This document shows positions 25,434 to 55,865 of a stretch of DNA of 64,000 bases, piece after piece. The position numbers and the translations under genes are program-made. Position 1 is the first letter of the stretch; each line of letters begins with the position of its first letter. The notes under the pieces are model-generated. The model had not been told where the DNA came from and searched no databases. It saw only the letters and a program-made list of their open reading frames with translations. This DNA is from Janthinobacterium sp. J1-1 (GTDB lineage: Bacteria; Pseudomonadota; Gammaproteobacteria; Burkholderiales; Burkholderiaceae_D), in the NCBI RefSeq assembly GCF_030944405.1, contig NZ_CP132339.1, forward strand, positions 310,001 to 374,000, written 5' to 3'.

Positions 25434-25960
25434 GTTATCCCGACTTGTTATGCCCCTTGTGCACATTGTTATCCACAGCACGGCAAGCGCCTTGCGGGCC
25501 GCCTGATGCATTTACCCTCATCATGCTGCGCGACAGTTTCCGTGAAAAACAAGTTATCCCGACTTGTCCGCTGCTTGCCCACCAGTTGACAACAGGCTTG
25601 TGCACAGATTTACCCACAGGCGGCAATCTGATTCAAGCATAAAATCCTGATTGAATTCAATAGCTTGAAAGTTATTCCGAGCTTATCCAGCATTTGCGCA
25701 CAGCATTATCCACAGCCGGGAAATTCGAAACCAGCATGTTGAAATATCATGGCTGCTTACCGGACAACGATGCATGAAACAAGACAAGACGCCAAACTTA
25801 TCCCGTCTTTTTCACCGCTTTTACATGGCTTATACCAGGCTTATCCCTGCATGATTCCCATGCTTGTACACATGTTTATCCACACTGCAAAAATGGCACT
25901 TTCAATAGCCGGTGACTTATCCCCTTTCTGCCCACCGCCTGTCCACAAGCTTGTCCACAA
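25434..25960 (+). repeat. array of about six diverged 45-base units ending in DnaA boxes
   Basis: The 617-base gap between the Lrp gene and glmU holds no gene but repeats one pattern: TTATCC(CGACTTG), a TTGTGCACA-like part, then a TTATCCACA-like box 32-35 bases after the first TTATCC. Units begin near 25435, 25554, 25672, 25798, 25841 and 25917; four of the intervals are 119, 118, 126 and, from 25798 to 25917, 119 bases. Perfect TTATCCACA (the DnaA-box consensus) occurs at 25469, 25706 and 25876; near matches are TTACCCACA at 25610 and TTGTCCACA at 25951. GTTATCCCGACTTGT is repeated exactly at 25434 and 25553. All boxes point the same way. The array could bind DnaA as a titration or regulatory locus; another factor is possible. 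Confidence 0.75.
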
Positions 25961-38224: not shown

Positions 38225-39001
38225 TCATTCTGCCAGGCGCTGGCACAGCCGTTTGATCGTGCCAAACGCATAACGCGAGGCCACGCTGTGCACGAAGCGC
38301 ATGAAGTCGACGGCCGCCTCTTCATTGGCGTTGTCCGACACCGTGCGCATGATGGTAAACGGCACGCCCAGTTCGAAACACACTTGCGCCACGGCCGCGC
38401 CTTCCATTTCGACGGCCAGCAGGTCAGGCAGATCCGCTTTCAACTGGTTCACATGGGCGGCGCTGCCGATGAACTGGTCGCCGCTGGCGATCAGGCCACG
38501 GTGCACCTGCGGTTGCTGCAAATTGAATTGTGCAATTTCCAGCGGATCGAGCACTGCTTGCGCATCCTCGCGCAAAAAATCCTGGGCGGCGCCGGCCAGT
38601 TGTTCGCTCAACGCCAGGTCGGTGGCAAAGCGCTGCAAGCCTGTCAGCGGCACTTCGAAGCGGGGAAACAGGGGGCGCGCATCCATATCGTGCTGCAGCA
38701 GGGCTTCGGCGACCACGATATCGCCTACTTTCACCAATTTATCCCCACTGCCGGCCACGCCGGTGAAGACGATGTGGGTAACTCCGAACTTTTCCACAAG
38801 CAAAGAAGCCGTCATGGCGGCGGCAACCTTGCCCAGACGCGACAGGACGCACACAGCGTCGATATTCCACAGCTGTCCAAGGGTGTAGACCCGCATGCCG
38901 TGCGAACGCGTGACGGCCCCTTGCATGGCTTCTACCAGCCCCTGCTGTTCTTCATGCAAGGCGCTGATGATCCCCAAACGCATTTTTTTGTCTGTATTCA
39001 T
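38225..39001 (-). CDS. mtnN: 5'-methylthioadenosine / S-adenosylhomocysteine nucleosidase
   Basis: A 258-residue nucleosidase (Pfs/MtnN). It cleaves adenine from methylthioadenosine and S-adenosylhomocysteine, in methionine recycling and in the route to autoinducer precursors. Motifs: MRLGIISALHEE at the start, VFTGVAGSGDKLVKVGDIVV, and the base/ribose-binding LLAVEMEGAAVAQVC with TVSDNANEEAA carrying the catalytic Asp. It is slightly longer than the E. coli enzyme. Its upstream region is the 1.3-kb repeat array at 39.1-40.2 kb. Confidence 0.95.
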   Translation of the reverse strand: MNTDKKMRLGIISALHEEQQGLVEAMQGAVTRSHGMRVYTLGQLWNIDAVCVLSRLGKVAAAMTASLLVEKFGVTHIVFTGVAGSGDKLVKVGDIVVAEALLQHDMDARPLFPRFEVPLTGLQRFATDLALSEQLAGAAQDFLREDAQAVLDPLEIAQFNLQQPQVHRGLIASGDQFIGSAAHVNQLKADLPDLLAVEMEGAAVAQVCFELGVPFTIMRTVSDNANEEAAVDFMRFVHSVASRYAFGTIKRLCQRLAE

Positions 39002-39112
39002 GTGTTTTTCACTGGTTTTGCGGGATTGAAAACGTTAACCGAAGCCGTTGACGGCGCTTTTCCACCGTTCGCGTTTGTTTCTGTGTTTTAAATAAAGAGG
39101 TATACATAAAAA

Positions 39113-39307
39113 TAGTAGTGATAGTAAACGCGTGTTTTTCTGTGGATAAGTCGGTATACCGTCGCGTTAACAAGCACTTAGGCCCTAAAAAAGGCGCTGC
39201 ATAAGCATTGTATCGAGGCCGGACTTGTTTGGGATAAAAGTTCGCCTGTGGACAAAGAACGACTTTTCCCACATCTCATCCTGTGGATATACAGGCAGTT
39301 ATCCACA
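39113..39307 (-). other. origin-type unwinding module A: DnaA-trios plus DnaA boxes
   Basis: Triplets TAG-TAG-TGA-TAG-TAA (39113-39127), a 13-base spacer, then the perfect DnaA box TGTGGATAA (39141-39149). Read on the minus strand this is TTATCCACA, spacer, then a run of 3'-GAT/AAT-5' trios on the complementary strand, the order described for the basal unwinding system of bacterial origins. AT-rich DNA (TATACATAAAA) follows the trios. Further boxes: TGTGGACAA at 39247, TGTGGATAT at 39282 and TTATCCACA at 39299. One trio is imperfect. Confidence 0.65.
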
Positions 39308-39533
39308 CCAGGCAGCAAAAACCACGGTTTTCACGGTTGCCGCCGTGCTGTTGGCGCACCTGGATGGCTGGCCAGCATGTTGGCCAAGGTCGACTACGGA
39401 TTCCTGCAGACGGTTTGGCAGTGACTGTCAGCGTCGCCGTTAACGTTTTTTTTTTGCGCTATTTGCCGGTTTTTGGAAAAAACGGCGAGGTTTGCGTTTT
39501 TTTGTCGGTTTACAATAGATTCATATATAAAAA

Positions 39534-39727
39534 TAGTAGTAATAGTAAACGTCGATCTTTCTGTGGATAAGTCGTTTTTTTTCAACAGGATCAATCGTTT
39601 ACGCGAAAAAAAAAGCCTGCATAAAGCCTGTATCGCCGAAGGAGCAAAATTGTATAAAATATCGGCGCTGCGCTAACTTCATGTTTACGCACAAGTCATC
39701 CTGTGGATATCGACTGACTTATCCACA
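39534..39727 (-). other. origin-type unwinding module B: DnaA-trios plus DnaA boxes
   Basis: The cleanest module. Five perfect trios TAG-TAG-TAA-TAG-TAA (39534-39548), a 13-base spacer, and TGTGGATAA (39562-39570), flanked on the trio side by TCATATATAAAAA. Downstream at fixed distance lie TGTGGATAT (39702) and TTATCCACA (39719), which face each other across 8 bases. On the minus strand the trio run reads TTACTATTACTACTA, very close to the trio tract I recall from the B. subtilis origin. Confidence 0.7.
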
Positions 39728-39977
39728 ACCGTTCTGAAACTTCCCTTTTTTGCACTGTGCAGACCTTGCCTGATCCGTCGGCAGGTGTTCGTTCGCGCGT
39801 CGTTTCCCGCAAGACGGTTTGGCAGTCTCGACGTTGTCGTGCTGGCTTGCCGTTTTTTGCTGGCTCAGTGTTGGCGCGATTTTTTTTTAGCTGGGCCAGA
39901 GCTGCATCAAACGGATTAGCCATGGCGAGGCCAACTGCGCGTGACCAGGTTTACCCTAACAAGATCGTATACAAGAA

Positions 39978-40173
39978 TAGTAATAGTAGTTAACGCAGGA
40001 CTTTCCTGTGGATAAGTACAGATTTATCCTTGTAAACAAAAACTTGGCGCGCGTATAAACGCTGGGCAAGGGTTGTATGACAGCTGAACAGTTTTGGGAC
40101 AAAAAAATCGTCCCTGAAAAATTTTTCGTTTACGCACATAGTGTACCTGTGGATATCCATACACTTATCCACA
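39978..40173 (-). other. origin-type unwinding module C: DnaA-trios plus DnaA boxes
   Basis: Trios TAG-TAA-TAG-TAG followed by TTA (39978-39992), a 14-base spacer and TGTGGATAA (40007-40015). TGTGGATAT (40148) and TTATCCACA (40165) repeat the inverted pair 141 bases from the first box. TTTACGCACA before the pair is shared with module B. The last trio is imperfect and the spacer is one base longer. Confidence 0.62.
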
Positions 40174-40345
40174 GCTGGAAAGGGTGTTTTTGAGCACGGA
40201 TTGCGCAGGCTGAGCAATTAATGTCGCCGAGCAAGGACACTGGTGGTAATCTGCTTTGCGACTCATGCACGAACAGACTCTGGTAATGGCAAGCGGCGAG
40301 GAGACACGCCGCCCACCCTCGAAAGTATTACCGAAAGGAGCTTCA

Positions 40346-41983
40346 TTGGAATCGGCAGGCGAATTCGACTACATCATCATCGGTGGCGGTACGGCAGGGT
40401 GCGTGCTGGCCAACCGGCTCACGCGCGACCAGAACGCCAACGTCTTGCTGGTGGAAGCGGGCGGCAAGGACGACTATGTGTGGATACACATTCCTGTCGG
40501 CTACCTGCATTGCATCGGCAATCCGCGCACCGACTGGCTGTATTCCACCCAGGCCGATGCGGGCCTGGGCGGGCGCAGCCTGATTTATCCACGTGGAAAA
40601 GTGCTGGGCGGCAGCTCGTCCATCAACGGCATGATTTATATGCGCGGCCAGGCACAGGACTATGACCGCTGGGCCGAGCTCGCCGGCGACGCGTCCTGGG
40701 GCTGGGACCAGGTGCTGCCGCTGTTCCGGCAAAGCGAGGATTATCATGGCGGCGCATCGAGCCACCACGGCGCCGGCGGCGAATGGCGGGTGGAAAAACA
40801 GCGCTTGTCATGGGATATCCTGAACGCTTTCCGTGATGCGGCGGAACAGGTCGGCATCCCGAAAACGCCGGATTTTAATCGCGGCGACAACAGCGGCAGC
40901 AGCTATTTCGACGTCAACCAGCGCCGCGGCATCCGCTGGAATACCTCGAAAGCGTTCTTGAAGCCGGCCTCGCGCCGGCCCAATCTGACCATCATGACGG
41001 GCTGCCACGTGGAACGGCTGCAGATCAGCGCCTCGGATAACGGTCCGCGCTGCACCGGCATCACGTTTACGGGCGGCGGCACGCAGTGGCAGGCGACGGC
41101 GCGGCGCGAAACGCTGCTGACGGCTGGCGCCATCGGTTCACCGCATCTGCTGCAATTGTCCGGCATCGGTCCGGCCGCCTTGCTGCGGCAACATGGCATC
41201 GCGCCCATGGTCGACGCCCCTGGCGTGGGCGGCAATCTGCAGGATCATTTGCAGCTGCGCATGGTGTTCAAGGTGCAGGGTGTGAAAACCTTGAACATGA
41301 TGGCTGGCAATTTGCTGGGCAGGATGCAGATCGGCTTGCAATATGCGCTGTTCCAGAGCGGGCCGATGTCGATGGCGCCGTCGCAGCTGGGCGCGTTTGC
41401 CCGCTCCGACCCGGGCCAGGCCACGCCGAATCTGCAATATCACGTACAGCCCTTGTCGCTCGACAAATTCGGCACGCCCTTGCATGCGTTTCCCGCATTT
41501 ACGGCCAGCGTCTGCAATCTGCGCCCGACCTCGCGCGGACAAGTACAACTGGCGTCGAACGACAGTTATGCGCCACCAAGCATTGCCCTCAATTACCTGA
41601 GTACGCCGGAAGACCGCCAGGTGGCGGCGGACGCCTTGCGCCTGACGCGCAGCATCGTCGCCGCGCCGGCCTTGCAGCGGTTTGCGCCGCAGGAATACAA
41701 GCCGGGTCCGCAATACCAGACGCAAGCCGAGCTGGTGCAGGCGGCCAGCGAGATCGGCACGACGATTTTCCATCCTGTCGGTACTTGCCGCATGGGCTTG
41801 GCCAGCGATCCTTTATCGGTGGTCGACAGCCAGTTGCGGGTGATCGGCGTGGCGGGCTTGCGCGTGGTCGATGCCTCCATCATGCCGTATATCACTTCGG
41901 GCAATACCAACTCGCCGACCGTGATGATCGCGGAAAAGGCGGCGCACATGATACAAAAATGCTGGAAACCCGAGACGGTTTGA
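40346..41983 (+). CDS. GMC-family oxidoreductase (choline dehydrogenase-like)
   Basis: A flavoprotein of the glucose-methanol-choline family, which oxidises alcohols with FAD. I place the start at TTG 40346 because a strong AAAGGAG site lies 5 bases before it and it leads directly into EFDYIIIGGGTAGCVLANRL; ATG 40256 would add 30 residues with no ribosome site. That gives 545 residues. Motifs: FAD-binding GGGTAGC, GKVLGGSSSINGMIYMRGQ (GMC signature 1), GAIGSPHLLQLSGIGP (signature 2), and the active-site His in FHPVGTCRMG. C-terminal TSGNTNSPTVMIAEKAA is typical. It has no transporter or betaine genes beside it, so the substrate is open. Confidence 0.9.
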   Translation: MESAGEFDYIIIGGGTAGCVLANRLTRDQNANVLLVEAGGKDDYVWIHIPVGYLHCIGNPRTDWLYSTQADAGLGGRSLIYPRGKVLGGSSSINGMIYMRGQAQDYDRWAELAGDASWGWDQVLPLFRQSEDYHGGASSHHGAGGEWRVEKQRLSWDILNAFRDAAEQVGIPKTPDFNRGDNSGSSYFDVNQRRGIRWNTSKAFLKPASRRPNLTIMTGCHVERLQISASDNGPRCTGITFTGGGTQWQATARRETLLTAGAIGSPHLLQLSGIGPAALLRQHGIAPMVDAPGVGGNLQDHLQLRMVFKVQGVKTLNMMAGNLLGRMQIGLQYALFQSGPMSMAPSQLGAFARSDPGQATPNLQYHVQPLSLDKFGTPLHAFPAFTASVCNLRPTSRGQVQLASNDSYAPPSIALNYLSTPEDRQVAADALRLTRSIVAAPALQRFAPQEYKPGPQYQTQAELVQAASEIGTTIFHPVGTCRMGLASDPLSVVDSQLRVIGVAGLRVVDASIMPYITSGNTNSPTVMIAEKAAHMIQKCWKPETV

Positions 41984-45931: not shown

Positions 45932-46912
45932 ATGAATAAGAATGTAGGCTACGCAGTCGCTTTGGCGCTGGCGCTGGCCGCACCGTTTTACGGCTACCCG
46001 GTCTTCCTGATGAAGTTGCTGTGCTTTGCCCTGTTTGCCTGCGCCTTCAACTTGCTGATCGGCTATACCGGTTTGCTGTCGTTCGGCCATGCGGCGTTTT
46101 TCGGCGGCGCCGGCTATGTCACCGGCTACGCCTTGCGCACCTGGGGCTGGCCGACGGAACTCGGTTTGCTGGCCGGTGTCGCCACCGGCGCCTTTTTGGG
46201 GCTGGTGATGGGTGGCCTGGCGATCCGCCGCCAGGGCATCTACTTCACCATGATCACGCTCGCCCTGGCGCAGATGGTGTACTTCCTGGCGCTGCGCCTG
46301 CCGTTCACGGGTGGCGAAGATGGTCTGCAAGGTGTTCCACGTGGAACACTGCTCGGCACCATCGACCTCGGCAATGACACCGTGCTGTACTACGTGGTGC
46401 TGGCCATCTTTATCGCCGGCTTCGCCCTGATCGTACGCACCATCCATTCGCCGTTCGGGCAAGTGCTCAAGGCGATCAAGGAAAACGAGCCGCGTGCAAT
46501 CTCCCTGGGCTACGACGTCAACAAGTACAAGCTGACGGCCATCGTCTTGTCCGCTTCGCTGGCGGCCCTGGCCGGCGCCACCAAGACCCTGGTGCTGGGC
46601 TTTGAAACCCTGACCGATGTCTACTGGGGCATGTCGGGCCTGGTCGTGCTGATGACCTTGGTCGGCGGCATGGGCACCCTGGCCGGCCCGATCATCGGCG
46701 CGGTGCTGATCATTGCCCTGGAAAACAAGCTGGGCGACCTCGGCACCTACCTGGCCACGCACACGGGCGTGGAATGGTTCGGTACCCTGGGTGAGTCGGT
46801 GGGCATCGTGACCGGCATCATCTTCGTGATCTGCGTGCTGATGTTCCGGCGCGGTATCGTGGGCGAGGCGATCGCCCGTTTCGGCGGCAGGGCAGCCAAG
46901 CCAGCAGCCTGA
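45932..46912 (+). CDS. livM: branched-chain amino acid-type ABC permease LivM
   Basis: A 326-residue permease, last gene of the cluster, with many membrane helices and landmarks IGYTGLLSFGHAAFFG, GLAIRRQGIYFTMITLALAQ and IKENEPRAISLGYDVNKYK. A perfect 16-bp parS-like palindrome is embedded in its coding sequence at 46333-46348, where it encodes GVPRGTL-type residues of the periplasmic loop. The gene is followed by a strong terminator. Confidence 0.95.
   Translation: MNKNVGYAVALALALAAPFYGYPVFLMKLLCFALFACAFNLLIGYTGLLSFGHAAFFGGAGYVTGYALRTWGWPTELGLLAGVATGAFLGLVMGGLAIRRQGIYFTMITLALAQMVYFLALRLPFTGGEDGLQGVPRGTLLGTIDLGNDTVLYYVVLAIFIAGFALIVRTIHSPFGQVLKAIKENEPRAISLGYDVNKYKLTAIVLSASLAALAGATKTLVLGFETLTDVYWGMSGLVVLMTLVGGMGTLAGPIIGAVLIIALENKLGDLGTYLATHTGVEWFGTLGESVGIVTGIIFVICVLMFRRGIVGEAIARFGGRAAKPAA
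46333..46348. promoter_or_regulatory. parS site (ParB-binding), perfect palindrome inside livM
   Basis: TGTTCCACGTGGAACA, a perfect 16-bp palindrome with the CACGTG core and the layout of bacterial chromosomal parS (consensus TGTTTCACGTGAAACA; two symmetric changes). parA and parB lie 8 kb downstream. Confidence 0.8.
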
Positions 46913-46929
46913 GTTGCAAGCAGCAAGCA

Positions 46930-46956
46930 AGGCCGGACGCAAGTCCGGCTTTTTTT
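46930..46956 (+). terminator. Rho-independent terminator of the liv operon
   Basis: Stem GCCGGAC / GTCCGGC with a GCAA tetraloop, followed by seven T, 20 bases after the livM stop. Confidence 0.92.
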
Positions 46957-47005
46957 ATCTGGAGACCGTTTTTAGCGTTACCTCATCAATGAATGGAGAA
47001 CAGCT

Positions 47006-49066
47006 ATGACCACCACCATCCTGCGCACCGGCGGCAGCTTGTGCACACTATTGATCCTGACGGCCTGCGGCAGCAGCCACACGGCCGAAGACCTGAACCA
47101 GTTGCCGGCCTACCTGGGCACCATCACCCGACTGGATGTCGACGGCAGGACCAATGATTTGTTGACGGCCGGCCTGGGCAAGACGGGACTGGCCGCGGCG
47201 GCCCCCGCGTATGCCGATCCCGAGCATCCGACCGCGCTGGAATTGCGCCGCAACGCCATCCACGCCAATTACCGCGCCGTGCTCGATATTGGCGCCAGCA
47301 GCGGCTACGGCAGCCTGTACGGCCCGAATGTCGATGCCAATGGCGTGGTGGGCGGCGGCGAAGGCCTGATCGCCGGCAGCGAATACGTAGCGTATGCCGA
47401 CGATGGCAGCGGCAAGAAAAACGTCACGCTGATGGTGCAGGTACCGGCCAGTTTCGATCCCGAGCGCGCCTGCATCGTCACGGGTACGTCGAGCGGCTCG
47501 CGCGGCATCTATGGCGCCATCGGCAGCTCCGGCGAATGGGGGCTGAAAAAAGGCTGCGCCGTGGCCTATGCCGACAAGGGTTCCGGCACCGGCCTGTATG
47601 TGTTCGACGACGACAGCGTCAACCTGCAGAACGGTGTGCGCGCCACGCGCACGAGCGCCGGCAAGAACGCCATCTTCGCACCCGACCTGGCCGACGCTGA
47701 TCGCACCGCCTTTGCCAGCGCAAATCCGAACCGCATCGCCTTCAAGCATGCACACTCGCAACAGAACCCGGAGAAAGACTGGGGCAGGGCCACCTTGCAG
47801 GCGGTGGAGTTTGCCTACTATGTGCTCAACGAGCGCCATGGCGCCACCGCGCGCGACGGGGTTGCCCATCTGGCGCGCCTGAAGCCCGCCAACACCATCA
47901 CCATCGCGTCGAGCATTTCCAATGGCGCCGGCGCCGCGCTGCTGGCCGCCGAGCAGGATACGAAGGGGCTGATCAGCGGCGTGGCCGCCAGCGAGCCGCA
48001 GATCCAGCCGCAGCCATCGACCGCGTACAGCGTGCGCCAGGGGGCGGTGACGGTGGCCGGCCCCGGCCGCGCGCTGTTCGATTATTCCACTTATGCGGCG
48101 CTGTACCAGCCCTGCATCGCCTCGGTGGCCGGCAATGCCGGACGCTGCACCGCGCTGGTGGCCAAAGGGTTATTGACTGGCGGCGACCTGGCCTCGCAGC
48201 AGCAGGACGCGAAACGGCGCTTGCAGGCCTACGGCTGGCTGGCGGACTCCGACCCCCTGCATGCCTCGCATGCGGGCACGAATATCCTGGTGGCCGTGAC
48301 GTATGCCTATGCCTACGGAAAATTTTCGGTGACGGATAAAGTGTGCGGCTTCAGCTTTGCGCAGACCGATGCGCTGGGCAATCCCGCCGCTTACACCAAT
48401 GCGCAGAAGGCGGCCAGCTTCGCCACGCAAAACGGCATCCTCGGCAATGTCATCTATGAAAATGCAGTGGGCGGCGCCAGGGTCTACACGGCGGCCGTCT
48501 CGCCGTCGAGCAATCTGGCCGACCAGGCGCTCGATGGTTTTCTTTGCCTGCGCAGCCTGGCGACGGGAAATGACGCCGTCAGCGGTACAGCCCTGACCGG
48601 GACACTGGCCGCGCACAGCACGCGCGTGCGCGTCGGCGTGGCGGAGGTGCGGGCCACAGGCAAGCTCAACGGCAAACCGGCGATCATCGTCCAGGGCCGC
48701 AGCGATACCCTGATTCCCGTCAACCACGCCTCGCGTGCCTACCTCGGTTTGAACGCGGCGGTGGAGGGCGCCAACAGCAAGCTGCGCTATATCGAGGTCA
48801 CCAACGCCAACCACTTCGATTCCTTCAGCAGCGCCTTGCCGACGCTGGTGGTGCCGCTGCATGTGTACCTGAATCGCGCGCTCGACGCCATGTATGCGCA
48901 CCTGCGGTCGAACCAGGCCCTGCCGCCGTCGCAAGTGGTGCGCACGGTGACGCGGCCAGACGCCGGCACGCCGATCACCAACCTGAATGTACCGTCAATT
49001 GCCGCCGCGCCCACGGCAGCCAACAGCATCACTTTGACGGGTGCGGTGGTGAACATTCCTGATTAA
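47006..49066 (+). CDS. D-(-)-3-hydroxybutyrate oligomer hydrolase
   Basis: A 686-residue enzyme of the 3-hydroxybutyrate oligomer hydrolase family (EC 3.1.1.22), which splits short oligomers released from polyhydroxybutyrate to monomers. The N-terminus has a hydrophobic stretch ending in LTAC-G, a lipobox, so it is probably membrane-anchored outside the cytoplasm. The likely nucleophile is Ser305 in ASSISNGAGAALLAAE; the C-terminal part has PAIIVQGRSDTLIPVNHASR (acid) and VTNANHFDSF (base). Length and motif spacing match the family. It stands alone with its own terminator. Confidence 0.92.
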   Translation: MTTTILRTGGSLCTLLILTACGSSHTAEDLNQLPAYLGTITRLDVDGRTNDLLTAGLGKTGLAAAAPAYADPEHPTALELRRNAIHANYRAVLDIGASSGYGSLYGPNVDANGVVGGGEGLIAGSEYVAYADDGSGKKNVTLMVQVPASFDPERACIVTGTSSGSRGIYGAIGSSGEWGLKKGCAVAYADKGSGTGLYVFDDDSVNLQNGVRATRTSAGKNAIFAPDLADADRTAFASANPNRIAFKHAHSQQNPEKDWGRATLQAVEFAYYVLNERHGATARDGVAHLARLKPANTITIASSISNGAGAALLAAEQDTKGLISGVAASEPQIQPQPSTAYSVRQGAVTVAGPGRALFDYSTYAALYQPCIASVAGNAGRCTALVAKGLLTGGDLASQQQDAKRRLQAYGWLADSDPLHASHAGTNILVAVTYAYAYGKFSVTDKVCGFSFAQTDALGNPAAYTNAQKAASFATQNGILGNVIYENAVGGARVYTAAVSPSSNLADQALDGFLCLRSLATGNDAVSGTALTGTLAAHSTRVRVGVAEVRATGKLNGKPAIIVQGRSDTLIPVNHASRAYLGLNAAVEGANSKLRYIEVTNANHFDSFSSALPTLVVPLHVYLNRALDAMYAHLRSNQALPPSQVVRTVTRPDAGTPITNLNVPSIAAAPTAANSITLTGAVVNIPD

Positions 49067-49084
49067 GGCGGCAGGTCCACAAGG

Positions 49085-49112
49085 AAAGGGCCACGTTTCA
49101 CGTGGCCCTTTT
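49085..49112. terminator. bidirectional Rho-independent terminator
   Basis: A 10-bp stem (AAGGGCCACG / CGTGGCCCTT) with a 5-base loop TTTCA and T/A runs on both sides separates the hydrolase gene from the convergent EAL gene. The loop and stem together contain GTTTCACGTGG, half a parS site, probably by chance. Confidence 0.88.
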
Positions 49113-49903
49113 CAATTCCAGGCGCTGTCGGATATCTGCGCCAGTCCCTGGAACACGGGTTTTGAAAACCAGTAACCCTGCATCAGCGCAATGCCGCAGC
49201 TGGCCAGGAAGTCGCGTTCGGCACGCGTCTCGATGCCTTCGGCCAGCACCTTGATGCCCAGCTCGCGGCACAGGCTGGCGATCGAGCGCACGATGGCCTG
49301 GCGCGGCGCATGACGATCGATGTCGCGCACCAGGTCCATGTCGATCTTGATGATATCGGGCTGGTATTCGGCCAGCAGGTTCAGGCCGGCATAACCGGCG
49401 CCGAAATCGTCGATGGCGGTCTGGAAACCGAAGCGCCGGTATTCTTGGAAAATATTGACCAGGTGAGGGCGGTCCTGCACCCGTTCGCCTTCCGTCACTT
49501 CAAAGATGATCTTGTCGGTGGGAAAGTCATGCGCGCGCGCCGCTTCCAGTGTGCTGCGGATGCAGACCTCGGGACGGTACACGGCATTCGGCAGGAAATT
49601 GATCGACAGGAACTCCTGCATGCCCAGGCGCGCGGCGCCCGCCACGGCTTTCACGCGGCAAGCCTGGTCGAAGCGGTAGCGGTTTTCGTCCGTCACCTGT
49701 GCCAGCACGCTGGCGGCGCTTTCGCCATTCGGGCCGCGCACCAGCGCCTCGTAGGCATAGATGCTGCGCGTGGCCACGTCGACGATGGGCTGATAGGCGT
49801 ACTCGAACGCGAACGACAGCGGCGCGCTGTCATGGCAACCGGCGCAGCCCGCGTAGGGAAACACGGTGGCGTCGGGATGGATGGGGATATCTGCAGGCTT
49901 CAT
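49112..49903 (-). CDS. EAL-domain protein, probable cyclic-di-GMP phosphodiesterase
   Basis: A 263-residue stand-alone EAL protein from the ATG at 49903. Catalytic landmarks are present: YEALVRGPNG (EAL motif), FLSINFLPNA (Asn), IIFEVTEGE (Glu), AIDDFGAGYAGLNLL (DDFG), IKIDMDLVRDID (Lys) and KVLAEGIETRAE (Glu). So hydrolysis of c-di-GMP to pGpG is likely. A short N-terminal part has CAGCHDS, a CxxCH sequence that resembles a heme or metal motif, but there is no signal peptide. No sensor domain is fused. Convergent with the hydrolase gene. Confidence 0.93.
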   Translation of the reverse strand: MKPADIPIHPDATVFPYAGCAGCHDSAPLSFAFEYAYQPIVDVATRSIYAYEALVRGPNGESAASVLAQVTDENRYRFDQACRVKAVAGAARLGMQEFLSINFLPNAVYRPEVCIRSTLEAARAHDFPTDKIIFEVTEGERVQDRPHLVNIFQEYRRFGFQTAIDDFGAGYAGLNLLAEYQPDIIKIDMDLVRDIDRHAPRQAIVRSIASLCRELGIKVLAEGIETRAERDFLASCGIALMQGYWFSKPVFQGLAQISDSAWN

Positions 49904-49946
49904 GGCGTCAGTGTACCAGCGTGATGTGGTATGTCGGTATGCTGGC

Positions 49947-51104
49947 TCACCATGCGGCCGCATAGATGGCCCGTGCGTCGGCCAAGGTGACGGTGCGCGG
50001 ATTATTGCCCAGCAAGCGCGTCTGCTGCATGGCGGCCTCGGCCAACCCATCGAGGTCCGCTTTGGCAATCCCCACGTCGCGCAAGGTACGCACGATGCCG
50101 GTCTCCACCGCCAGCGCCTGCAGTGCGGCGATCAGCGCTTGCGCGCGCGCCTCTTCGCTGCCCGTTGCCTGTGGCGCCACGATGGCCGCCAGTTCCGCAT
50201 ACAACGGTATGGCGTGGCCAAGATTGAAGCGCAGCACGTGTGGCAGCACCAGCGCGTTCGACAAGCCATGTGGCACGTGAAACATGCCGCCGATCGGATA
50301 GGCGAGGGCGTGCACGGCCGCCACCGGCGCATTCGAAAACGCCTGGCCGGCCAGCATGGCGCCCAGCAGCATGGCTTGCCGCGCCGCCAAGTCCTGGCCG
50401 TGGCGGCACACGCGCACCAGGTTACTTGATAACAGCGACAGGGCTTGCCGCGCCAGCATGTCGGACAGCGGGTTTTTTAGATGCGCCGTGGTGTAGGCCT
50501 CGATCGCATGCACCATCGCATCGAGGCCGGTGGCGGCCGTCACGGCTGGCGGCAGGCCCAGGGTCAGGCGGGCGTCGAGGATGGCCAGGTCCGCATACAG
50601 CTGTGGCGCCACCACGCCCATCTTGCTGGTGGCGCCCGTGGTGACGATGGAAATATTCGTCACTTCCGATCCTGTGCCGGCGGTGGTGGGTACTTGCACC
50701 AATGGCAGACGCGAGCCTTGTACCTTGCCGATGCCATACAGCTCGCTCAGTGCCTGCCCACCAGGCGCCAACACGGCGATCAGCTTGGCCACGTCCATCG
50801 AACTGCCGCCACCGAGGCCGATCACCAGTTCCACGTGAAACAATCGTGCCTGCTCCACGGCCGCCAGCACCACGGCTTCCGGCGGATCGGCTTGCACATC
50901 GGAAAAGACATGCACCTCGATGCCCGCTTCCTGCAAGCTGCGCAGTGGCGTATCGACCAGCCCCGTGGACAGGAAGCCGGGATCGGTCACCAGCAGTACC
51001 CGCCGCACGGTGGGAAAGTGCAGGCCTATATGTGTGCCAAGCTGGCTGCTGGCGCCTGGTTCGCTGATCAAATGGGGGATGGTGCGAAACTGAAAGGCGG
51101 CCAT
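49947..51104 (-). CDS. iron-containing (group III) alcohol dehydrogenase
   Basis: A 385-residue iron-dependent alcohol dehydrogenase. The start at 51104 follows GGGAG by 7 bases. NAD-binding GGGSSMDVAKLIAVL, the family signature VPTTAGTGSEVTN, and the metal ligands in DAMVHAIEAY and GGMFHVPHGLSNAL are all present. Substrates of the family range from 1,3-propanediol to ethanol and hydroxyacids; none is indicated. Two parS-like sites lie inside the gene (50269, 50827) and two more just upstream of it. Confidence 0.95.
   Translation of the reverse strand: MAAFQFRTIPHLISEPGASSQLGTHIGLHFPTVRRVLLVTDPGFLSTGLVDTPLRSLQEAGIEVHVFSDVQADPPEAVVLAAVEQARLFHVELVIGLGGGSSMDVAKLIAVLAPGGQALSELYGIGKVQGSRLPLVQVPTTAGTGSEVTNISIVTTGATSKMGVVAPQLYADLAILDARLTLGLPPAVTAATGLDAMVHAIEAYTTAHLKNPLSDMLARQALSLLSSNLVRVCRHGQDLAARQAMLLGAMLAGQAFSNAPVAAVHALAYPIGGMFHVPHGLSNALVLPHVLRFNLGHAIPLYAELAAIVAPQATGSEEARAQALIAALQALAVETGIVRTLRDVGIAKADLDGLAEAAMQQTRLLGNNPRTVTLADARAIYAAAW
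50269..50284. promoter_or_regulatory. parS-like site, 2 mismatches
   Basis: TGTGGCACGTGAAACA matches the consensus TGTTTCACGTGAAACA at 14 of 16 positions, with a perfect right half. Inside the alcohol dehydrogenase gene. Confidence 0.5.
50827..50842. promoter_or_regulatory. parS-like site, 2 mismatches
   Basis: AGTTCCACGTGAAACA matches the consensus at 14 of 16 positions with an intact core and right half. Inside the alcohol dehydrogenase gene. Confidence 0.55.
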
Positions 51105-51160
51105 GCGAACTCCCAGGAGAGAAGGTTCAACGAGCTTACTCCGCTTTTTGCGCCTGCGCA

Positions 51161-51176
51161 TGTTCCACGTGAAACC
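51161..51176. promoter_or_regulatory. parS site upstream of mnmG
   Basis: TGTTCCACGTGAAACC matches the consensus at 14 of 16 positions and lies in the non-coding region between the alcohol dehydrogenase gene and mnmG, 37 bases from a perfect site. Confidence 0.65.
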
Positions 51177-51197
51177 ATCGTTGATGATTATCAGCAT

Positions 51198-51213
51198 TGT
51201 TCCACGTGGAACA
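51198..51213. promoter_or_regulatory. parS site upstream of mnmG, perfect palindrome
   Basis: TGTTCCACGTGGAACA, identical to the site at 46333, in the intergenic region. The pair with 51161 suggests a loading site for ParB, whose gene is 3.8 kb downstream. Confidence 0.8.
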
Positions 51214-51331: not shown

Positions 51332-53277
<1,946 letters not shown>

Positions 53278-53281
<4 letters not shown>

Positions 53282-53922
53282 AGCAGTTTGACCGGGCCGT
53301 ACTGGCCCAGACTTTGAATGAAGGCATCGCCGCGCTGAAGCTCGACCTGAGCGCGGCGCAAGCGGAACAACTGCTCGATTACCTGGCCCTGTTGGCCAAG
53401 TGGAACAGCGTCTACAACCTGACCTCGGTGCGCGATCCGTTGCAGATGCTGACCCTGCACGTGCTCGATTCCCTGGCCGCCGTGCCTGCTTTCGCGCAGG
53501 CGAAAAACGTGCTCGACGTGGGCGCCGGCGGCGGCCTGCCGGGCATGGTGCTGGCCATCGCACGGCCCGATATCAAGGTGTCGATGATCGATACGGTGCA
53601 CAAGAAGACCGCGTTTTTGACGCAGGTGAAAGCCGAACTGGGCCTGGCCAACGTTACGGTGTACACCAAGCGCGTGGAGCAGCTGGAAGTACCGCAGAAA
53701 TTCGACGTGATCACCTCGCGCGCCTTTGCCGACCTGTCCGACTTCGTCAACTGGTCGCACCACGTATTGGAGGAGGGTGGTCAATTCATCGCCTTGAAGG
53801 GGGTGGCTCCGCCAGACGAGCGCGAGCGACTGCCGGCAGACTGGAAAGTGACGAAATTGACCCCTATTCAGGTGCCAGGGCTAAATGCAGAGCGTCATCT
53901 GGTGTTTATAACAAGATTTTAA
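53278..53922 (+). CDS. rsmG: 16S rRNA (guanine(527)-N(7))-methyltransferase
   Basis: A 214-residue RsmG (GidB), which methylates N7 of G527 in 16S rRNA; loss gives low-level streptomycin resistance in other bacteria. Motifs: [30 protein letters not shown] loop [17 protein letters not shown] and the [15 protein letters not shown] region. It is translationally coupled to mnmG. The 9-bp repeat array starts 10 bases after its stop. Confidence 0.97.
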
Positions 53923-54093: not shown

Positions 54094-54153
54094 TTTCGGT
54101 CATGCGCCGGGGCGCGACAATGAAGTTTGCATCCATTTACAACTAGAAGATAC

Positions 54154-54924
54154 ATGGCCAAAATTTTTTGCGTAGCAAATCAAAAGGGTGGTGTTGGTAA
54201 AACCACCACGAGTGTCAACCTGTCCGCCGGCCTGGCCAAGCTGGACCAGCGCGTGCTGCTGGTCGACCTCGATCCGCAAGGCAATGCCACCATGGGCGCC
54301 GGCATCAACAAGGCCGGCTTGAAAGCGTCGACCTATGAAGTGATGCTGGGCGAGTCCGATGTCAGGACGGCACGCCAGCGTTCGGAAGCGGGGCGTTTCG
54401 ACGTGCTGCCGTCGAACCGCGAGCTGGCCGGCGCCGAAGTCGAGATGGTGGAACTGGACCGCCGCGAAAGCCGCCTGAAGGATGCGCTGGCCGAAGTCGA
54501 CGGCGAGTATGACTTCATCCTGGTCGATTGCCCGCCGGCCCTGTCGATGCTGACCCTGAACGGCCTGTGCGCCGCGCATGGCGTGATCATCCCGATGCAG
54601 TGCGAGTACTACGCGCTGGAAGGCTTGTCCGACCTGGTCAACACCATCAAGAAGGTGCATGCCAACCTGAACCCGGAGCTGAAGATCATCGGCCTGTTGC
54701 GCGTGATGTTCGATCCGCGCATGACATTATCGCAACAAGTCTCGGCCCAGCTGGAACAGCACTTTGGCGACAAGGTCTTCAAGACCATTATCCCGCGCAA
54801 CGTGCGCCTGGCCGAAGCGCCCTCGTATGGATTGCCTGGCGTCAACTTCGACCCCAGCTCGAAAGGCGCGCAAGCGTATATCGCCTTCGGCGCCGAGATG
54901 GTCGAGCGCATCAAGCATATGTAA
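54154..54924 (+). CDS. parA: chromosome partitioning ATPase ParA (Soj)
   Basis: A 256-residue ParA. It forms ATP-dependent dimers on the nucleoid and moves ParB-parS complexes to segregate new origins. The start at 54154 follows AGAAGATAC. Deviant Walker A KGGVGKTTT (residues 11-19), DLDPQGNATMGAGI, and FILVDCPPALSMLTLNGL are all typical. Being short and without an N-terminal HTH, it is the chromosomal type (ParA Ib/Soj-like), not the plasmid P1 type. parB follows after 59 bases. Confidence 0.97.
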   Translation: MAKIFCVANQKGGVGKTTTSVNLSAGLAKLDQRVLLVDLDPQGNATMGAGINKAGLKASTYEVMLGESDVRTARQRSEAGRFDVLPSNRELAGAEVEMVELDRRESRLKDALAEVDGEYDFILVDCPPALSMLTLNGLCAAHGVIIPMQCEYYALEGLSDLVNTIKKVHANLNPELKIIGLLRVMFDPRMTLSQQVSAQLEQHFGDKVFKTIIPRNVRLAEAPSYGLPGVNFDPSSKGAQAYIAFGAEMVERIKHM

Positions 54925-54983
54925 GAAGCAAGCGATCACGGTCATAATGTGAGCGCTTACTTAAAAAAATTCATTAGGACAGC

Positions 54984-55865
54984 ATGGCTACCAAAAAATT
55001 AAAAGGACTGGGGCGCGGCCTCGACGCCCTGTTAGGCGGCGGCGACTTCGCCAGTCCGGAACAGGCGGCACCGACCACACTGGCGGTGACACAAATGCAA
55101 GCCGGCAAATATCAACCGCGCACCCGCATGGACGAGGGCGCCCTGAATGAACTGGCCGCCTCGATCAAGGCGCAGGGCTTGATGCAGCCGATCCTGGTGC
55201 GCCCGATCGGCCAGGACACCCTGAGTGGACTTATCAAATATGAAATCATCGCCGGCGAACGGCGTTTTCGCGCCTCGCAGCTGGCCGGGCTGACGGAAGT
55301 GCCGGTGCTGGTGCGCGACGTCGACGACCTGGCGGCTGCGGCCATGGCGTTGATCGAGAACATCCAGCGCGAAGACCTCAATCCATTGGAAGAGGCGCAG
55401 GGCATCCACCGCCTGATCACCGACTTCAGTTTTACCCATGAGCAAGCGGCCACTGCGGTCGGACGCTCGCGCAGCGCGGTGTCGAACCTGTTGCGGCTGA
55501 TGAACCTGGCCGCCCCGGTGCAGACCATGCTGATGGCCGGCGATATCGACATGGGCCATGCGCGCGCGCTGTTGGCGGTCGACGCGGCCAGCCAGATCAC
55601 CCTCGCGAACCAGGTGGTGGCAAAACGGCTGTCGGTGCGCGAAACGGAAAAACTGGTCACGCGCACGGTCGAGGAAGCGGCCAACCCCGTGGAACCGCGT
55701 GTCAAGGAGAAGTCGGGCGATATCGCGCGCCTGGAAGAGGAGCTGTCCGATGCCCTCGCCACGCCGGTGGTGTTCAAGATGGGCAACAAGGGCCGTGGCC
55801 AGTTGGTGATTGATTTTGCCGATCTTGACGTACTGGATGGTTTGCTGAGCCGTTTGCGTGGTTAA
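54984..55865 (+). CDS. parB: chromosome partitioning protein ParB (Spo0J)
   Basis: A 293-residue ParB. It binds parS and spreads as a CTP-dependent sliding clamp. KKLKGLGRGLDALLGG at the N-terminus is the ParA-contact sequence. The CTP-binding part has GERRFRAS and LIENIQREDLNPLEEAQG; the HTH has FTHEQAATAVGRSRSAVSNLLRL; the C-terminal dimer domain ends in a LDGLLSRLRG helix. The parS-like sites at 46.3 and 50.3-51.2 kb are its likely targets. Confidence 0.97.
   Translation: MATKKLKGLGRGLDALLGGGDFASPEQAAPTTLAVTQMQAGKYQPRTRMDEGALNELAASIKAQGLMQPILVRPIGQDTLSGLIKYEIIAGERRFRASQLAGLTEVPVLVRDVDDLAAAAMALIENIQREDLNPLEEAQGIHRLITDFSFTHEQAATAVGRSRSAVSNLLRLMNLAAPVQTMLMAGDIDMGHARALLAVDAASQITLANQVVAKRLSVRETEKLVTRTVEEAANPVEPRVKEKSGDIARLEEELSDALATPVVFKMGNKGRGQLVIDFADLDVLDGLLSRLRG

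Follow-up and report, generated by a model that had tools for sequence, protein, structure and literature searches.

Three Tandem Escherichia coli-Type Modules Distant from dnaA as the Probable Chromosomal Replication Origin of Janthinobacterium sp. J1-1

RESULTS

A module present three times between mtnN and a GMC oxidoreductase gene

The window analyzed here is a stretch of 64,000 nucleotides from Janthinobacterium sp. J1-1 (C1:310001-374000; chromosome, 6,715,144 bp; genome, 6.95 Mb), and positions are those of the window unless marked otherwise. Within it, a gap is bordered on the left by mtnN (38225-39001, minus strand; Pfam PNP_UDP_1) and on the right by a plus-strand gene that Pfam assigns to the GMC oxidoreductases and that ends at 41983. 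This gap holds one module of ~220 bp in three copies, A, B, and C, all in the same orientation (array at chromosomal positions 349,101-350,178). Each copy runs, in this order, from unstable AT-rich DNA with trio-like triplets at its end through a spacer, a TGTGGATAA box, and an IHF-like site to an inverted pair of boxes. The whole modules span 39088..39309 (A; profile match, E 2e-50), 39512..39731 (B; E 8e-51), and 39957..40177 (C; E 1e-47) on the plus strand. DnaA box 1, which reads TTATCCACA on the minus strand, lies at 39141..39149 in A, 39562..39570 in B, and 40007..40015 in C. The inverted pair, TGTGGATAT and TTATCCACA with 8 bp between them, occupies 39282..39307, 39702..39727, and 40148..40173 and starts 141, 140, and 141 bp past the start of box 1, respectively. 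This is the triplicate layout that the first-pass annotation had described, and it was confirmed. The modules start 421 and 445 bp apart; thus, the linkers vary in length.

High-affinity DnaA boxes are clustered in the array, as would be expected of an oriC. With up to one mismatch, TTATCCACA was found 24 times in the window, compared to 5.9 expected (standard deviation, 2.6), and none of 100 shuffles contained 24 or more. The perfect sequence occurs 31 times in the genome (15 for the reversed control), six of them in the array, within 1.03 kb. Genome wide, the box-gap-pair pattern had three occurrences, all in the array (reversed control, 0), and a module model search of the whole genome returned three matches, namely, modules A, B, and C.

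All three modules also contain a feature that had been overlooked at first, an IHF-like site on the plus strand at +18 bp after box 1 (39168..39180 in A, 39589..39601 in B, and 40034..40046 in C), each matching 8/9 of WATCAANNNNTTR, which we take to be the IHF consensus. A set of 188 modules was collected by the exact pattern, and three without TAG/AGT upstream were dropped; in the remaining 185, this selection itself fixes box 1 and the pair but not the trios, the IHF-like site, or the interior. The best IHF-like match lay at +18 in 179 of these 185 unique modules and scored at least 8/9 in 157/185, compared to 3/185 for shuffled segments. Thus, a predicted IHF-like site in a fixed register, as in E. 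coli-type origins, is present at +18. An alignment of 40 modules further showed a conserved order of GTnAAC past the trios, box 1, the IHF-like element, TGTAT, a TGGATAAA-like element, TTnnnCACA, and the pair.

Further sites and genes of interest lie to the right. Five parS-like sites (46333, 50269, 50827, 51161, and 51198; span, 46333..51213) are 6-11 kb from the array; a consensus search with up to two mismatches allowed gave 10 matches at five palindromic places, with 0.09 expected from shuffles. mnmG and rsmG (gidA/gidB), customary neighbors of origins, are ORFs named by eye at 51332..53922 (plus strand), with mnmG ~11 kb from the array, and parA and parB are found at 54127..55865 (plus strand; Pfam AAA_31 and ParB_N/HTH_ParB/ParB_C). 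The parS-like sites, mnmG-rsmG, and parAB are all 6-16 kb off the array. Matches to mnmG were found as well within the 8-kb loci of two relatives' arrays (L137 and L151).

Trio-like runs and computed stability of the DNA

Module B carries a DnaA-trio run of five TAG/TAA triplets at 39534..39548 (plus strand), 13 bp from the box and inside the gap's least stable 50-mer (39500-39549), and the five perfect trios noted there earlier were thereby verified. In module A, the plus-strand run at 39113..39127 (TAG TAG TGA TAG TAA), inside an unstable 50-mer at 39079-39128, is broken by TGA, so that the uninterrupted TAG/TAA series proximal to the box is two triplets long. In module C, the plus-strand run at 39978..39992 (TAG TAA TAG TAG TTA), inside an unstable 50-mer at 39945-39994, includes a pure TAG/TAA run of four whose end is 17 bp from the box. 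The earlier claim of TAG/TAA runs 13 to 14 bases from the box therefore holds for B but not for A, with its TGA break, or for C, with its pure run 17 bp off.

A published rule for DnaA-trios calls for at least three consecutive NAN trios with a spacer of ≤16 bp from the box (PMC8287927). Module B passes, with seven NAN triplets at 13 bp, five of them TAG/TAA, whereas module A fails, with two NAN triplets at 13 bp and then TGA, and module C fails, since its six NAN triplets lie at 17 bp and so exceed the limit by a single base, with two NAN triplets within 16 bp. Thus, of the three full DnaA-trio systems proposed at the outset, the one in B stands by the strict rule and those in A and C do not. 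Across the 185 modules, 45 passed at ≤16 bp, 72 at ≤18 bp, and 147 at ≤25 bp; random places in the window passed at rates of 14%, 16%, and 20%, respectively. At 45/185 passing, compared to 14% of random places, the rule does not by itself define the modules. Along the trio-like stretch, every third base is an invariant T in the alignment of 40 modules. The stretch spans 20 columns, and across 21 Janthinobacterium arrays, the invariant share of these columns is 90% in A, 90% in B, and 70% in C. We take the trio-like stretch to be a constrained opening element, as far as its sequence tells, which the rule appears to capture only partly.

By nearest-neighbor computation, the gap's three least stable 50-mers are the three trio segments, which stand at 0.2, 0.3, and 0.7% in the stability ranking of the window. 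Judged by computed stability, an unstable unwinding element adjoins a DnaA box here, as in an oriC.

Position of the array relative to GC skew, KOPS, and dnaA

A one-change fit of GC skew (1-kb bins, −20 to 635 kb; near-contiguous sequence with some gaps) placed the change-point at 349,000; cumulative skew was lowest at 348,000. The array, at 349.1-350.2 kb, is therefore located where an oriC is expected, at the switch between leading and lagging skew (349 kb), with a bootstrap middle half of 319-351 kb and a 95% range of 77-392 kb. The skew and array positions agree well, and the signal is weak. On the sampled whole-chromosome curve, skew drops to the array region and reaches its maximum near 4.5 Mb. 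The replichores look unequal, at ~4.2 and 2.6 Mb (origin at 0.35 Mb, skew maximum at ~4.5 of 6.7 Mb), possibly reflecting a past rearrangement, and skew polarity is weak from 0.35 to 1.4 Mb. KOPS, which we take to be GGGNAGGG, are clearly oriented on the far arms, mixed at 0-250 kb, and plus-biased from ~250 kb; since this bias begins 100 kb left of the array, KOPS do not mark the array. In two relatives, sampled skew was compared with module positions as well: the lowest sample of G141 is at 3.81 Mb and its modules are at 3.636 Mb (~0.2 Mb apart on a sampled curve), and in G107 the curve is flat from 4.35 to 5.01 Mb and lowest near 4.89 Mb, with modules at 4.445 Mb. We draw no support from either curve.

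dnaA is located at C1:13-1386, 348 kb from the array, which thus does not adjoin it. The 600 bp upstream of dnaA contain one perfect DnaA box, and no module was detected by the profile in the 15 kb after or the 20 kb before dnaA. The comparison of skew with the position of dnaA that the first-pass annotation had proposed therefore places the change-point at the array and not at dnaA, albeit with the wide 95% range given above.

Several other places in the genome carry DnaA boxes. Within 617 bp, a cluster at 25435-25959 (C1:335.4-336.0 kb), between genes named by eye as an AsnC/Lrp-type regulator and glmU, carries 11 TTRTCC motifs on one strand and a single one on the other, compared to 0.64 expected; TTRTCCACA accounts for four of the motifs, and some are spaced 10-13 bp apart. 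Among 14 sampled relatives, BLAST matched it in 6, each a member of the same genus; the five that were read have 11-13 such motifs on one strand, and in G001 the cluster is likewise ~13 kb from the origin array. This cluster may be a regulatory array near oriC that binds DnaA. At L061:6592-7570 (C1:6182592-6183570), flanked by xseA and an exbB-like gene (both named by eye), seven tandem units lie 136-170 bp apart, six of them with TGTGGAYAAGATTGTGNRCAA. This motif was present in 15/15 genus genomes searched, including this one, and occurred six times in 11 of them (control, 0); the locus resembles DnaA-regulatory loci of the datA/DARS type and is putatively of that kind. A third place, L210:1400-1830 (C1:96.4-96.8 kb), has two DnaA box groups with one perfect box each and an IHF-like AAATCAATGMCTTG downstream. 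Loci of this type lie apart from the skew switch and consist of DnaA boxes with no unwinding element. The array itself was considered as such a regulatory locus and rejected, having unstable segments and a position at the skew switch.

The distance of dnaA, the further DnaA-box loci, and the wide bootstrap range of the skew switch would all suit a chromosome on which replication starts at dnaA, the array being a second origin or an origin-derived locus that binds DnaA for titration or reactivation. We regard this as improbable: the change-point falls at the array rather than at dnaA, no module is near dnaA, the genome-wide model search found only the three modules, and neither the glmU cluster nor the L061 locus matched the profile.

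Similarity of the module to known origins

Searched against E. coli K-12, the module profile matched oriC at L339:993-1166, inside the annotated oriC at 945-1176 (18.8 bits, E 1.8e-6 in a 2-kb search). The trio part is outside the match, which begins at model position 47, just before box R1. Two weaker matches (E about 0.001) overlap the oriC end and lie in adjacent DNA. The box sequence of E. coli oriC is identical to that of the modules, and an IHF-like match of 7/9 lies at +18 after box R1, compared to 8/9 at +18 in the window modules. mnmG adjoins oriC in E. coli and is 11 kb from the array here. E. coli has one unit, compared to three here. The profile and IHF register matches indicate that the unit is E. 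coli-like and that what changed in the family is its multiplication and its separation from dnaA.

Compared to the basal unwinding system of Bacillus subtilis and most bacterial origins, module B is alike in its box, its 13-bp spacer, its more than three trios, and TAG as the commonest trio, while modules A and C are off the strict rule and three units are found in one origin (PMC8287927). In that survey, spacers peak at 10-13 and TAG (3'-GAT-5') is the commonest trio (PMC8287927). The survey program gave one candidate per genome in over 99% of cases, so multi-unit arrays would not be visible there (PMC8287927).

Among relatives, the predicted origin of Cupriavidus metallidurans CH34 chromosome 1 lies at a skew switch ~90 kb from dnaA, beside 213 nt that contain three perfect DnaA boxes (PMC2864759); thus, an origin apart from dnaA is not new among these relatives. 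The portion of the account used here describes no module, trio, or copy number, and this origin is set beside the array by description only (PMC2864759). Similarly, oriC1 of Burkholderia cenocepacia has DnaA boxes, an IHF site, an AT-rich block, and more than one box cluster, with no module described in the sections of the paper considered here (PMC4948915). Its authors call the exact place of the main origin not clear and mention a second box cluster (PMC4948915). A literature search, conducted mostly at the abstract level and covering few subscription journals, yielded no description of a repeated or tandem multi-module origin.

Conservation and copy number in the genus and family

The exact pattern was found in 39 of 40 Janthinobacterium genomes (37/37 good ones; control, 0), three times in 33 of them; the sole genome without it is 82% complete. 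In 21 genus arrays with three modules each, 55, 54, and 47% of the columns of A, B, and C are invariant, compared to 7 and 2% for the linkers and 14 and 0% for the flanks, and linker length ranges from about 200 to 879 bp.

The gene order PutA, mtnN, modules, GMC, and Liv transport genes recurs at Massilia, Duganella, and Pseudoduganella loci. At many Duganella-type loci (L087, L132, L145, L153, and others), a minus-strand gene of ~900-1000 codons lies between modules ~3 kb apart. At first look, the tandem repeats resemble iteron arrays, as if a plasmid or phage origin had integrated beside mtnN. Against this stand the same gene neighbors in several genera, the kinship with E. coli oriC, and the lack of any Rep-type gene recognized by eye next to the array, and we give such an integration next to no credence.

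In the wider family, the exact pattern was present in 92/294 genomes and 9/44 genera, and the module model matched 99/106 genomes and 37/40 genera. By number of model matches, the 106 family genomes comprised 27 with one, 50 with two, 21 with three, 1 with four, and 7 with none; these are counts of model matches, so strict filters may miss weak copies, and since a weak opposite-strand match may overlap a module (L231, L240), the four and some of the threes are perhaps one too high. At least two matches were found in 72/106 genomes and two or more separate module places in at least 61/106. Hence, a triplicated module, which had seemed unusual at first, belongs to a family in which more than one module is common. 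Module pairs on opposite strands were observed at L242 (G041) and in G053, G055, G114, and G149; at L242, mtnN lies between the two modules, whose trio sides are face to face.

The position away from dnaA proved no more unusual: in 13 family genomes, including this one, with dnaA and modules on one contig, the distance from dnaA to a module ranged from 19 kb (G071) to 363 kb (G141), and modules were beside dnaA in 0/13. This sample left out G040, G064, G066, G135, and G151, with modules towards the other contig end, and G144. Among 139 genomes of the class that were sampled outside the family, 48 had matches, mostly weak and mostly single. dnaA was within about 3 kb in 10 of the 14 other-family loci fetched, as expected of dnaA-adjacent origins. 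Among the matches listed in a broad pattern scan, some from distant records, Rubrobacter included, represent densely clustered boxes and not the module.

History of the module copies

A tree was built from 121 modules of 46 loci, picked by eye for seemingly whole arrays. A split with support of 100/98 separated 46 last-position and three middle modules from 46 first-position and 26 middle modules, and position labels required 8 changes on the tree, compared to 55.8 for shuffled labels. Janthinobacterium module B grouped with the first module of most Duganella. We read the tree as showing that the A/B and C lineages are older than the split of Janthinobacterium, Rugamonas, and Duganella; the separation of A from B is probably older than that split as well, and Duganella, in our reading, would have lost one module. 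That the lineages have been kept apart for so long speaks against the copies being spare. A second tree, built with outgroup genera to date the first duplication, had weak deep branches and gave no date for it, and several outgroup pairs clustered by genus; contrary to the first tree, the last module of two Massilia fell with the A/B group.

DISCUSSION

The array between mtnN and the GMC oxidoreductase gene is, in our judgment, the chromosomal oriC of this Janthinobacterium, consisting of three tandem E. coli-type units (probability, roughly 0.9). The first-pass annotation had left three options, the true oriC, a second origin, or an origin-derived locus; the first is favored by the skew change-point at the array, the lack of a module near dnaA, the conservation in the genus, and the profile match to E. 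coli oriC, though by the strict rule a full trio system is present in B only.

A way in which such a unit could operate is modeled on E. coli and on the basal unwinding system (PMC8287927). DnaA would bind box 1 and the inverted pair of each module, and IHF or a similar bender at +18 would fold the DNA. Folding would let DnaA extend leftwards from box 1 onto the trio-like strand, the AT-rich segment beside the trios would then open, and the helicase would be loaded. The unstable side of all three units faces mtnN, so that as many as three sites in a span of 0.9 kb could open.

How many of the units would open is a separate matter. The same oriC may have a single opening module, with B the best candidate, and the other two modules may be platforms for DnaA loading or timing that help or restrain it; we put this slightly short of even odds. 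The strict trio rule, passed by B only, speaks for it, as does the somewhat lower conservation of module C (47% versus 54-55% invariant), and to our knowledge model bacteria have one unwinding region per origin as a rule. However, box 1, the IHF-like site, the pair, and the lowest stabilities of the gap are kept in all three modules, conservation extends to the trio-like stretch in both A and C (90 and 70% of 20 columns, compared to 90% for B), and C misses the limit by a single base, with its six NAN triplets at 17 bp. Alternatively, origins of the family may be multi-opening, with two to three independently competent E. coli-type units that have been distinct lineages since before several genera split. 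The outcome of the strict trio rule (45/185) moved weight from this proposal to a single opening module, and we hold it tentatively, with more doubt than conviction. We know of no such multi-opening organization in model bacteria.

If the origins of the family are indeed multi-opening, initiation may start at any unit, and the dose response to DnaA and the control of re-initiation would be set by how many units there are and of which kind. Multiplied origin units, distant from dnaA and kept in separate lineages, amount to a natural experiment on the minimal origin unit, on whether one cell can use several units, and on how re-initiation is avoided. Furthermore, the module profile provides a direct test for origins that lack an exact position, chromosome 1 of Burkholderia cenocepacia being an example (PMC4948915).
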